Shown here one piece after another: positions 26,579 to 42,679 of a stretch of 64,000 bases of DNA; the first letter of the stretch is position 1; every line of letters starts with the position of its first letter. The notes beneath the pieces are model-generated. The model was not told where the DNA came from. It saw only the letters and a list, made by a program, of their open reading frames with translations, and made no database searches. Origin of the DNA: Yoonia sp. R2331 (GTDB taxonomy: Bacteria > Pseudomonadota > Alphaproteobacteria > Rhodobacterales > Rhodobacteraceae); contig NZ_JBGCUN010000001.1 of NCBI RefSeq assembly GCF_041103235.1, positions 682,001 through 746,000 on the forward strand, in the 5' to 3' direction. The translations under genes and the position numbers were made by a program.

Positions 26579-28771
26579 ATGCCCCTGACCCATTTCAACG
26601 AAGGCGACCTGATCGGTGTGCTGACGACCCAGCCGATTGACCGGGTGCTGGACTACAAGGCGCCCGAGGGCGGGTGTTTTTTGGGGGCCTTCGTCGAGGT
26701 GCCGCTGGGCCCGCGCAAGGTGATGGGCGTGGTCTGGGGGCCTGGCAAGGGCGACTGGGACATCTCAAAGGTGCGTAGCGCCTATCGGGTGCTGGATGTC
26801 GCACCGATGCGGGACGAGATGATGGCATTCCTGGCCCGTGCCGCCGATTACACGCTGACGCCGATGTCCGCGATGCTGCGTCTGGCGACCCGCGCCCCGG
26901 GGCTGGGTGACCCACCGTCGATGCGCAAGGTTTACCGGCTGGGCGATCAGGACCCCAACCGTGTCACCGCCGCTCGGACCAAGGTGCTTGAGGTCCTGCG
27001 CGACTACGGCGGGCTGTCGTTCACGCTGAGGGAAGTGGCCGAGATGGCCGGCGTCGGCACCTCTGTCGTCAAGGGGCTGGTCAAACTGGGCGCTGTTGCC
27101 GAAGAGGACGCACCACGCGACACTGCTTATCCGCGCCTCGACCCGGACTATGGCGGCAAGGACCTGACAGCGGATCAGCTTGCAGGTGCCAAGGTCCTGC
27201 GCGAGGCAGTCGGGTCCGGCACCTATGGCACCACCTTGCTGAAAGGCGTGACCGGATCTGGCAAGACCGAGGTCTACCTTGAAGCGGTGGCCGCCTGTCT
27301 GCGCAAGGGGCGGCAGGCGCTGGTGCTCTTGCCCGAAATCGCATTGACCGGGGAATTCATCGACCGGGTCGAGGCGCGGTTTGGGATGAAGCCAGCCGAA
27401 TGGCATTCCGGCGTGACCGCGACCGAGCGGCGGCGCTGCTGGCGCATGGTCGGGCAGGGGGATGCGCAATTGATCGTGGGCGCGCGGTCAGCGCTGTTTC
27501 TGCCCTATCGCGATCTGGGGTTGATCGTCGTCGATGAAGAACACGACACATCTTACAAACAAGAGGACGGCGTCCTTTATAACGCCCGCGATATGGCCGT
27601 TCTGCGCGCCTCGCTGAATGGTGCGCAAGTGGTGCTGGCCTCTGCCACGCCCAGCCTGGAAAGTTGGGCCAATGTCGAGGCGGGCAAATACGCGCGGCTG
27701 GAACTGACCAGCCGGTTTGGCGCGGCGGTCATGCCCAAGATGGCCGCGATTGACATGCGTGTCGAAGACCTGCCCGGCGGCAAATGGGTCTCGCCCACGT
27801 TGCAAGGTGCTGTCCGCGCCCGGTTGGACAAGAACGAACAATCGCTGATCTTTCTCAACCGCCGTGGCTATGCGCCAATCACGTTGTGCCGGGCCTGCGG
27901 GCATCAGATCGGTTGCGATCAATGTGACGCGCGCATGGTTGAGCACCGGTTCCTCAAGCGGCTGATGTGCCACCAATGCGGTGAGACCAAACCGATGCCC
28001 ACTATCTGCCCCCATTGCGAGGCAGAGGACCGGTTGTCTGCCGTTGGTCCGGGGGTGGAACGCATGGGCGAGGAGGTCACAGACCTCTTCCCCGATGCAA
28101 AGGTCGTCGTGCTGTCGAGTGACCTTTATGGTTCTGCCCGCGCGATGAAGGCACATATCGCAGAGATTGCCGAAGGCGGGGCTGATATCATCATCGGCAC
28201 GCAGCTTGTCGCCAAAGGGCATAACTTTCCCAAGCTCACCCTTGTTGGCGTCATCGACGCGGATCTGGGGTTGCAAGGGTCCGATTTGCGGGCCGCTGAA
28301 CGGACCTTTCAACTGATGCGGCAGGTGGCCGGACGTGCCGGCCGGGCCGAAGCACCGGGTGAGGCGCTGATGCAGACCTATCAACCCGAACACGCGGTGA
28401 TCCAGGCGATCATTGCGGGCGATGAAGAACAATTCTGGGCGGCCGAAGCGGCTGAGCGCAAGGCGGCGGGCGTGCCACCCTACGGACGGATGGCGGGGAT
28501 CGTGCTGAGCAGCCCCAATGTGCAAGAGGTCTTTGATCTGGGATCAGAGATGGCCCGGCGCGACGGACCATTGCGCGCGATTGGGGCACAGGTCTTTGGT
28601 CCCGCACCTGCGCCGATTGCGCGGATCAGAGGGCGGCACCGGGTGCGGTTACTGGTGAAGGCCGAAAAGACCGCCCCTTTGCAAAAGGCGCTGGCCGACT
28701 GGGCCGGACAATTTCGCCTACCCAATAACCTGCGGCTGTCGATCGATATTGATCCGCAGAGTTTTTATTAG
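26579..28771 (+). CDS. priA: Primosomal replication restart helicase PriA
   Basis: This 3'-5' helicase recognises stalled forks and reloads the replisome. The 730-residue product has an N-terminal 3'-OH-binding domain. Walker A GVTGSGKTEVYL lies near residue 223 and a DEEH box near 319. The zinc-binding region has four Cys pairs (CRACG, CDQC, CHQC, CPHC). GTQLVAKGHNFPKLTLVGV and QVAGRAGRAEAPGE are the C-terminal helicase motifs. The length is normal for alphaproteobacterial PriA. It is preceded by the hairpin cluster and appears to be monocistronic. Confidence 0.96.
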   Translation: MPLTHFNEGDLIGVLTTQPIDRVLDYKAPEGGCFLGAFVEVPLGPRKVMGVVWGPGKGDWDISKVRSAYRVLDVAPMRDEMMAFLARAADYTLTPMSAMLRLATRAPGLGDPPSMRKVYRLGDQDPNRVTAARTKVLEVLRDYGGLSFTLREVAEMAGVGTSVVKGLVKLGAVAEEDAPRDTAYPRLDPDYGGKDLTADQLAGAKVLREAVGSGTYGTTLLKGVTGSGKTEVYLEAVAACLRKGRQALVLLPEIALTGEFIDRVEARFGMKPAEWHSGVTATERRRCWRMVGQGDAQLIVGARSALFLPYRDLGLIVVDEEHDTSYKQEDGVLYNARDMAVLRASLNGAQVVLASATPSLESWANVEAGKYARLELTSRFGAAVMPKMAAIDMRVEDLPGGKWVSPTLQGAVRARLDKNEQSLIFLNRRGYAPITLCRACGHQIGCDQCDARMVEHRFLKRLMCHQCGETKPMPTICPHCEAEDRLSAVGPGVERMGEEVTDLFPDAKVVVLSSDLYGSARAMKAHIAEIAEGGADIIIGTQLVAKGHNFPKLTLVGVIDADLGLQGSDLRAAERTFQLMRQVAGRAGRAEAPGEALMQTYQPEHAVIQAIIAGDEEQFWAAEAAERKAAGVPPYGRMAGIVLSSPNVQEVFDLGSEMARRDGPLRAIGAQVFGPAPAPIARIRGRHRVRLLVKAEKTAPLQKALADWAGQFRLPNNLRLSIDIDPQSFY

Positions 28772-40665: not shown

Positions 40666-40977
40666 ACCGACCAGCATGCCTGTCTGAGGTTTCGGGACCA
40701 CTATTTACTGTTAGCCTGGCTGTTTCGGCCAGTCTTCAATGACCGCTCTCATGACTTTGGCTGCACTGCAGCGACGGTTGTGCTGTAAAAGGCGAATGAA
40801 TGCTGCGTCAGCGATGGCAGCGCCTGCATCTGTCCGCTGCGTCCGCAAAGCAGCCCTCCAGCAGATAACGCCCACCAAAAACGCTTACACTCTGGTTTTC
40901 CTGACCTGCGGGCGGCTCAGCACCCTGATAGGTTGAAATCGCCATATTTCGGCAATTTCAAAAAAGGAGATTTTAGA
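40666..40977. other. Gap upstream of the radical SAM pair (312 bases)
   Basis: No supportable gene. The stretch from about 40740 to 40930 has an open frame with Ala/Arg/Cys-rich, non-homologous translation that looks like noise or decayed coding sequence. Near its right end a stem-loop (40933-40961) precedes the AAAAGGAG ribosome-binding site of the 105-residue gene. Confidence 0.5.
40933..40961. promoter_or_regulatory. Inverted repeat in the leader of the radical SAM operon
   Basis: TTGAAAT-C-GCC and GGC-A-ATTTCAA form an 11-step stem with one mismatch around ATATTTC. It ends three bases before AAAGGAG of the 105-residue gene. It could be an operator or an RNA structure affecting initiation. 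Confidence 0.45.
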
Positions 40978-41295
40978 ATGCTTAATGTTGAAAAGCTCAG
41001 TACCGAGCAAACGCTTGAACTAATGGCCAATCGGGTCGCGTCAAACAAGATCAGCCGCGATAGCCTTGGCACGATTTCCAAGGCGATCTTTAACGACGAA
41101 TTCCCGGTCATCGGCTTTGACGTCTGTAAATACGGCACCTGCTGGGACTTTGAATTCAAGGGGCCGCTGGTCAAATTTGACCTGCAACGCCTGATGGAAC
41201 TGGTCCCGGGCCGGGTGCGCAACGTCGACATCATGATCGACGGGATCACAGACCCCGAACGCCTGCGCGTGCGCGTCGGCCAAGAGCTGGGCTGA
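40978..41295 (+). CDS. 105-residue protein coupled to a radical SAM gene
   Basis: The product has no signal peptide or membrane segment. Residues 1-38 look helical (NVEKLSTEQTLELMANRVASN). A short strand-rich centre carries two cysteines in VCKYGTCWDF (C50 and C55), and the C-terminal third is basic/acidic with ITDPERLRVRVGQ. I do not recognise the family. The stop codon shares a base with the radical SAM ATG (TGATG), so both are made from one message in coupled fashion. It could be a substrate, a carrier or a recognition partner of that enzyme. The start at 40978 has AGGAG nine bases upstream; a longer frame from 40933 would run through the stem-loop. Confidence 0.8.
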   Translation: MLNVEKLSTEQTLELMANRVASNKISRDSLGTISKAIFNDEFPVIGFDVCKYGTCWDFEFKGPLVKFDLQRLMELVPGRVRNVDIMIDGITDPERLRVRVGQELG

Positions 41296-42236
41296 TGGCC
41301 TTGATGGCCCGTCGGGTGGTGCACATCCACCCGACACTATTGTGCAATCTGACATGTGCCCATTGTTATTCGACCTCCAGCCCGCAGATGCCACGCGGGC
41401 TGGACCCTGAACACATCCTGCAAGCAACCGCCAAGATGGCCGCGGATGGCTATGACAGCGCCAGCCTGTCGGGGGGCGAGCCGACGATCTACTTTGGTCT
41501 GGACCGCCTGTGCGGCGGCCTGCGCGAACAGGGCTTTGCGGTGTCGGTCATCACCAACGGCCTGCAACCGCGTCGGATTGCGGGTTTTGCCGATCAGCAT
41601 CAGCCTGACCTGATCTCGGTCAGTTTTGACGGGTTGGCCCCGCGCCACGACCTGATCCGGCGCAAGCAAGGCAGTTTTGATCGTGCGATGGAAACGCTGA
41701 AAACGCTGGCGGACAAAGGTCATGCCTGCGGTGCTGTGGTCTCGCTTGGTGAAGACGGGATGGAGGATATTCCAGCCCTTGTCGCGCAAATCGCCGCGGC
41801 AGGCGCGCGACACGTGCAACTGCATCCGGTGTCGGAACTGGGGCGCGGGCTGACCTCTGCCATTGTGAAAGAACCCAGCGACGAAACGCTTTTGCGGGCG
41901 ATGGTCCTCAGCCAGCTTCTGGACGTCATTCACCCCGATTGCCGGATCATCTGTGACGCGCTGACGGGCGAGCTGCTGCAAGCCAAGCCCCGGCCAAAAG
42001 TGGGTGATTTGGTCTCACCGGTGGTGATCGGCGCCGATGGCAAGGTCTTTCCCGTGGCCTATGGGCTGGCCGAACATTTCAGCTTTGGCAATGTCCGGGA
42101 TGGGCTGTCGCCGACGGTCTATGCGCCCGAACTGGTCGATCTGATCGACAGGTGTTGGGACGCGGCCGCCACGCGAGAAGCGACCGCCTTCTATCCTGAT
42201 TTGACCCGGCTCAGCCAGACGTTGGTGCCCGGCTAG
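41295..42236 (+). CDS. Radical SAM enzyme, unassigned family
   Basis: The 313-residue product has the radical SAM cluster motif CxxxCxxC at C17, C21, C24 (HPTLLCNLTCAHCYS), the SAM-contacting SGGEPTIYFGL, VITNGL and SVSFDGLAPRHD. A TIM-barrel-like continuation is conserved to the end. There is no SPASM-type Cys-rich C-terminus, so it is not an obvious member of the peptide-maturase families that carry extra clusters. The preceding 105-residue gene overlaps it by one base. It may modify that protein or a peptide; the reaction is unknown. The convergent universal stress gene overlaps its end by four bases. Confidence 0.85.
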   Translation: MALMARRVVHIHPTLLCNLTCAHCYSTSSPQMPRGLDPEHILQATAKMAADGYDSASLSGGEPTIYFGLDRLCGGLREQGFAVSVITNGLQPRRIAGFADQHQPDLISVSFDGLAPRHDLIRRKQGSFDRAMETLKTLADKGHACGAVVSLGEDGMEDIPALVAQIAAAGARHVQLHPVSELGRGLTSAIVKEPSDETLLRAMVLSQLLDVIHPDCRIICDALTGELLQAKPRPKVGDLVSPVVIGADGKVFPVAYGLAEHFSFGNVRDGLSPTVYAPELVDLIDRCWDAAATREATAFYPDLTRLSQTLVPG

Positions 42237-42679
42237 GGCACGGTCAAAACGGCACAATGTGCGTGGTGGCTGATCCGCTGCGAGGTACTGCCAAGGATCA
42301 GCCCCGCGATATTGCCAAGCCCGCGCCGTCCAGTGACGATCAGATCGGCATCCATTTCTTTGGCCGTGGCGATGACCATGTCGCCGGGGTCGCCGCGCTG
42401 TGTATAGCTTTCCGCAACTGTGCAGCCTGCCTTTGTCACAATGTCGGTGGCCGATGCGATGATCTTGGCAGCAGCGGCCTGCACGGTTTTGTCGTCCGGC
42501 ATGGTCGTGACCATATGATAGCCCGCCACAGCACCGGTGGCGAAGGCCACAGTGTCAGGGTGCGGCACATGCACCAGATAGATCGCCGCATCGCAGGCCT
42601 TAGCCAGATCGCAGGCGGCATTCAGCGCATGAAGTGCGGGGTCAGACCCGTCTACACCAATCAGGATTTTCGAAAACAT
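42233..42679 (-). CDS. Universal stress protein UspA family
   Basis: The 148-residue product is a single Usp domain: MFSKILIGVDGSDPALHALNAACDLA at the N-terminus and the ATP-binding G-2x-G-9x-G(S/T) motif at the C-terminus (TGRRGLGNIAGLILGSTSQRI). ATP binding is therefore likely. The role is stress tolerance, unspecified. GAAAGGAAAG lies before the ATG. It is convergent with the radical SAM gene and divergent from the monooxygenase. Confidence 0.93.
   Translation of the reverse strand: MFSKILIGVDGSDPALHALNAACDLAKACDAAIYLVHVPHPDTVAFATGAVAGYHMVTTMPDDKTVQAAAAKIIASATDIVTKAGCTVAESYTQRGDPGDMVIATAKEMDADLIVTGRRGLGNIAGLILGSTSQRISHHAHCAVLTVP

Follow-up and report, generated by a model that had tools for sequence, protein, structure and literature searches.

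A small-protein gene and a radical SAM enzyme gene gained or lost as a unit in Rhodobacterales: a candidate two-gene protein-modification pair

A small gene in Yoonia sp. R2331 runs directly into a gene for a radical SAM enzyme, which raises the question of whether the small protein is the substrate of the enzyme or serves it in some other way. The pair lies in the stretch of 64,000 nucleotides analyzed here (the window). The small gene (40978 to 41295, plus strand) starts at ATG 40978, stops at TGA 41293 to 41295, and encodes 105 amino acids; the enzyme gene (41295 to 42236, plus strand) runs from ATG 41295 to a TAG ending at 42236 and encodes 313 amino acids. Direct reading of the sequence bears out the one-base TGATG overlap (41293 to 41297) described in an earlier, sequence-only reading, as well as the VCKYGTCWDF stretch with C50 and C55 in a 105-residue protein. 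The start that this reading gave to the unit, 40933, corresponds to an upstream TTG of a longer open reading frame, whereas the conserved start is ATG 40978, preceded by the Shine-Dalgarno sequence GGAG (40966 to 40969, plus strand). Between close relatives, dN/dS ratios are 0.06 to 0.15 for the small gene and 0.08 to 0.17 for the enzyme gene, indicating that both are real genes. The upstream neighbor encodes a DUF2306 membrane protein and the downstream neighbor a universal-stress-type protein (Usp; 42236 to 42679) on the opposite strand, and the pair in the window therefore stands alone.

Ten distinct pairs were read, from about eight genera of one marine-rich family. In all ten, the enzyme gene lies directly 3' of the small gene on the same strand, with stop-to-start distances of -1, -1, -1, -4, +3, -1, -1, -4, +14, and +45 bases. 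The co-occurrence check proposed in the sequence-only reading was run, and the two genes were not mostly apart: the enzyme gene follows immediately after each small gene found. In the reverse test, with a profile built from the ten enzymes, close homologues of the enzyme were confined to genomes carrying the small gene among those sampled. Scores above 470 bits were reached in the 61 genomes of relatives only by the three that have the small gene, and the sole other match with an E value of <1e-40 (149 bits) belonged to a different pair of a small protein and a radical SAM enzyme. Among 168 genomes of the order, four scored 445 to 479 bits, all with the small gene, and there was no further match at E <1e-40. 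The pairing is thus real and, among the genomes sampled, exclusive.

The distribution of the pair is patchy. The small protein was found in 3 of 61 genomes in the whole-genome sample of relatives, in 4 of 397 genomes of the family sample, in four of the six genomes of the window genus, and, by profile search, in 6 of 393 genomes of the order; in the class and phylum samples it occurred only in the window's own genome or species. A pattern scan of 84,980 species genomes for CPYGIC-type sequences, with patterns drawn from one small-protein subtype only, gave four loci, all in Rhodobacterales, two of which are very probably the same records as G147 and G834. The number of copies is a lower bound, since the distribution is patchy, the genome samples were capped in size, and the patterns of the large scan represent a single subtype. 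The small protein was not found in the plasmids or in the viral contigs searched, the latter giving only distant radical SAM matches.

In a tree with 13 other radical SAM enzymes, the ten enzymes form one clade (support, 94/97; present in 95% of bootstrap trees). Distances between the small proteins correlate with those between the enzymes (r = 0.95), and both proteins split alike, with the window genus, L020, and L021 on one side and the remaining copies on the other; a five-residue insertion in the small protein is common to the former group. Two sites were seen in both an occupied and an empty state. The pair of Sulfitobacter aestuariivivens (L014) is flanked by a DUF2927 gene and a Band_7 gene of a TelA region; another genome of the same genus (G083) lacks the pair, and there these two genes are separated by 41 bp. 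Within the window genus, one genome (G002) has the order priA, a weakly DUF2927-like gene, the pair, and Usp, whereas in another (G001) priA and Usp are 0.3 kb apart without the pair. The remaining copies adjoin unrelated genes, and no third gene recurs across the loci compared. The DUF2927 neighbor was considered as a part of the system and rejected: it occurs at two loci only, in one case within a TelA region that is also present where the pair is missing. The single clade of enzymes and the matching sites without either gene in close relatives show that the two genes are acquired or lost together and that no third gene goes with them.

Several features of the surrounding sequence were also observed. 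The region between priA (26579 to 28771 in the window) and Usp is variable: it holds about 12 kb of accessory genes in the window, with the pair at the Usp end, and shrinks to 0.3 kb in G001. When the window (40921 to 41400) is compared with the corresponding locus of G002 (L083), the upstream region and the small gene are far more alike than the rest of the enzyme gene; identity falls after about position 41400, and dS is 0.22 for the small gene and 0.84 for the enzyme gene. A similar gap in dS is seen in L015/L016, and it may reflect either recombination or extra constraint. An inverted repeat, a possible mRNA hairpin or operator, lies 5' of the ribosome-binding site (approximately 40933 to 40961, plus strand). 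The stem-loop proposed there in the sequence-only reading is present (minimum free energy, -9.6 kcal/mol; z = -2.2; 8 of 200 shuffles equally good) and kept in both genus relatives read, in one of them with an A-U to G-U change. This is modest evidence for an RNA stem-loop, and the repeat could equally be a DNA operator palindrome. This repeat was seen in the genus relatives only and had no match in Rfam. Inverted repeats of differing sequence precede the small gene in both subgroups (L014:5894-5924 in the other), where they are possible operators.

The small protein had no significant match in Pfam, NCBIfam, PADLOC, the PDB sequences, or Foldseek searches of PDB and viral structures, and its model had no PDB fold match below E 0.001; a Pfam match to Baculo_VP91_N (E 0.16) was under the cutoff and was rejected. 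It thus belongs to no family described in these resources. Seven positions are invariant in the ten small proteins (A21, C50, G53, C55, D57, G89, and R97), and the core C50-x2-G53-x-C55-x-D57 is kept while overall identity drops to ~25%. C50 and C55, flagged early on as important, are therefore invariant in every copy, and in eight of the ten they are the sole cysteines. D48 is Asp in nine copies and Asn in L021. W56, which had been named as another candidate site, is an unlikely target because seven of the ten copies have Ile there and the position belongs to the hydrophobic register of a hairpin.

That hairpin comprises codons 48 to 57 of the small gene (D48-V-C50-K-Y-G53-T-C55-W-D57; 41119 to 41148, plus strand), as placed by the alignment and by the strands of an AlphaFold2 model. 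The model, of medium confidence and built from an alignment of five sequences (pLDDT, 77; pTM, 0.68), predicts an alpha-alpha-beta-beta-alpha-beta-beta order with strands at residues 44 to 50 and 53 to 61. The L014 protein, modeled in a read-through chain with its enzyme, showed the same secondary-structure order, and the topology predicted in these two sequences is not that of a RiPP recognition element (RRE). The folded appearance noted for the partner thus agrees with a predicted folded domain that has the motif in its middle. Residues 47, 49, 54, 56, 58, and 60 of the hairpin are mostly hydrophobic and alternate with residues 48, 50, 53, 55, and 57, a pattern suggesting that the latter share the non-hydrophobic face. 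Lying opposite a hydrophobic face, the conserved Cys/Asp cluster is probably an exposed surface site rather than part of the core.

The enzyme matches Pfam Radical_SAM (PF04055) with 69.6 bits against a gathering threshold of 29.5 (E 4.6e-19). C17, C21, and C24 of the CxxxCxxC motif already recognized in the sequence-only reading (CNLTCAHC in the window) are present in all ten enzymes, which places them in the radical SAM superfamily, and they are the only cysteines conserved across the ten. The claim that a SPASM-type tail is absent holds for the cysteines, none of which is conserved in the tail, but not for the tail as a whole, which keeps G-x3-P...G and resembles a SPASM tail without its cysteines. 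In the same analysis, the tails of NirJ, MftC, and PqqE showed clustered cysteines. A SPASM/twitch maturase was accordingly rejected, as the conserved auxiliary-cluster cysteines of the C-terminal domain are absent across the ten enzymes. The named radical SAM maturases of NCBIfam were likewise rejected (best score, 81.6 bits against a cutoff of 591.75 for TIGR03913, and the others similarly far under), as was prokaryotic viperin (47.9 against 180 for NCBIfam NF038283; PADLOC viperin models matched in their N-terminal part only). Being below all NCBIfam cutoffs, without SPASM cysteines or RRE topology, and not a viperin, the pair falls in no named family tested. The nearest solved structure, both by sequence (E 6e-16) and by fold, is the sactipeptide maturase SkfB. 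In the read-through model, a single chain obtained by reading through the L014 stop codon, placement of the small domain was not confident (block pLDDT, 45 to 77), and the model was therefore left out as docking evidence.

That both genes travel as a self-contained unit points to chemical modification of the small protein by the enzyme. We give roughly an even chance to the proposal that the two genes are a protein-modification cassette in which the folded partner is the enzyme's own substrate, modified on its Cys/Asp face. The first gene would yield a small folded cytoplasmic protein, and translation of the second by coupling would let both proteins appear in step. The radical SAM enzyme, which has no auxiliary-cluster cysteines, would then act on the partner, on the probably exposed side of the first beta-hairpin along which D48, C50, G53, C55, and D57 are aligned. 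The most likely product would be a thioether linking C50 or C55 with position 48, 53, or 57 of the facing strand. The analysis shows the pairing, its exclusivity among the genomes sampled, the unit gain or loss of the genes, the invariant residues, and the lack of conserved tail cysteines; the substrate role, the site, and the thioether we infer. Modification of the partner is the simplest reading given that the conserved residues are on the partner, the enzyme lacks auxiliary cysteines, translation is in step, and nothing else travels with the two genes. In its favor, too, SkfB, the closest solved relative of the enzyme, makes Cys thioethers. Several points count against it. Two cysteines and two aspartates on one face also fit a metal site, and the enzyme has no conserved auxiliary-cluster cysteines, unlike the known Cys-cross-linking radical SAM enzymes, which carry auxiliary clusters. 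Moreover, D48 is replaced by Asn in L021, the read-through model did not dock the two proteins confidently, and the model of the small protein is of medium confidence only.

The nearest working model for such a pair may be QhpC/QhpD, the gamma subunit of quinohemoprotein amine dehydrogenase and its radical SAM enzyme. This dedicated enzyme cross-links a small protein about 100 residues long, joining Cys to Asp/Glu by thioethers in single turnovers (PMC7876137). Both systems combine, in one operon, a protein of this size with a dedicated radical SAM enzyme, and the modified small protein would remain a protein, as QhpC does. However, QhpC is mostly coil and depends on a leader of 28 residues as well as on a protease, an exporter, and a flavoprotein, whereas the present system has two genes only, no evident leader, and a partner with a predicted fold. 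QhpD contains several Fe-S clusters, in contrast to an enzyme without conserved auxiliary-cluster cysteines, and its family was not among the best 25 NCBIfam matches of the enzyme.

The main rival to modification of the partner casts the small protein as an obligatory subunit instead of a substrate, its D/C hairpin binding a metal or an iron-sulfur cluster or recognizing a third molecule (a protein, an RNA, or a metabolite) that the enzyme modifies. The enzyme without conserved auxiliary-cluster cysteines would suit such a division of labor, as would the partner, one face of which carries both invariant cysteines and a pair of acidic residues, and small dedicated partners that are not substrates are known, such as PlpY and MbnC (PMC12710340; PMC11002830). 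Yet no third gene is common to the loci, and the pair is alone in unrelated neighborhoods, so that only a common component of the cell could serve as the substrate; we regard this explanation as rather unlikely.

We consider it improbable that the small protein is a RiPP precursor, cut to release a modified peptide, such as a sactipeptide, ranthipeptide, or spliceotide, that is then exported. The nearest enzymes by sequence and fold do include RiPP maturases, and related radical SAM enzymes are encoded after small proteins whose tails are peptide-like. SkfB and other SPASM/twitch RiPP maturases (PqqE, SuiB, and EpeE) share the radical SAM core with the enzyme; however, the enzyme lacks their auxiliary-cluster cysteines in the tail, its partner is not a short peptide, and every NCBIfam maturase score was far under the cutoff. 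The motif is internal to a domain predicted to fold instead of forming a C-terminal core, and the neighborhoods compared have no protease, exporter, or RRE gene in common. In line with the absence of a leader-peptide protease or exporter noted for the operon, a classical pathway of leader, core, protease, and exporter is not supported. The PlpXY splicease likewise combines a radical SAM enzyme with a small helper and acts at Xaa-Tyr-Gly, and a Tyr-Gly step (K/P/A-Y-G) is present in nine of the ten small proteins. PlpX, however, has a SPASM domain and separate precursor peptides (PMC11002830), and the replacement of Y52 by Lys in L021 (KG for YG) weakens the spliceotide idea. The small protein of the GGDFG-tail pairs (G008 and the Mycolicibacterium plasmid pCBMA213_1), about 115 residues long, is also encoded immediately 5' of a radical SAM enzyme, but it has a Gly/Pro-rich tail and no C-x4-C, and its enzyme has several tail cysteines. 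This enzyme is the one further match, at E <1e-40, of the enzyme profile among the relatives.

Other radical SAM units were met as well. The GGDFG-tail unit (L087:1124-2550 and L011:3536-5062), from an alphaproteobacterium and an actinobacterium, respectively, encodes a small protein ending in GGDFGTV..GP.GP, without a family match, and looks like a RiPP-type pair. Plasmids of Indioceanicola profundi (L012:3383-8742) and Sinorhizobium meliloti GR4 (L106) encode an NTF2-like protein with two or three radical SAM enzymes, the former also with a PqqD-like protein and a TIR-type neighbor.

A defense or toxin-antitoxin-like module was considered because the pair is compact, patchy (four of the six genus genomes and 6 of 393 genomes of the order), and at variable sites; sites exist with and without it, and a variable region adjoins priA. 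Such a module is very improbable, given that the small protein has no PADLOC family, the match of the enzyme to PADLOC viperin models is confined to their N-terminal part, its NCBIfam viperin score is 47.9 against a cutoff of 180, and there is no toxin signature.

To return to modification of the partner, the analysis suggests that the two proteins work like a substrate-plus-maturase pair with a modification undescribed so far; no description of the pair was found in the open-license papers searched. Most characterized radical SAM modifiers of peptides and proteins act on unfolded peptides and carry auxiliary clusters. We put forward only tentatively, as a possibility on the unlikely side, that a radical SAM enzyme without auxiliary clusters installs a thioether across the strands, or some other new bond, on the exposed Cys/Asp face of a beta-hairpin in an already folded cytoplasmic protein, creating a stable protein-borne active or metal site. 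If this is true, the pair would define a new type of protein-modification unit, made of two genes and moving between genomes, and so minimal a pair would be a simple system for learning what radical SAM chemistry on folded proteins requires.
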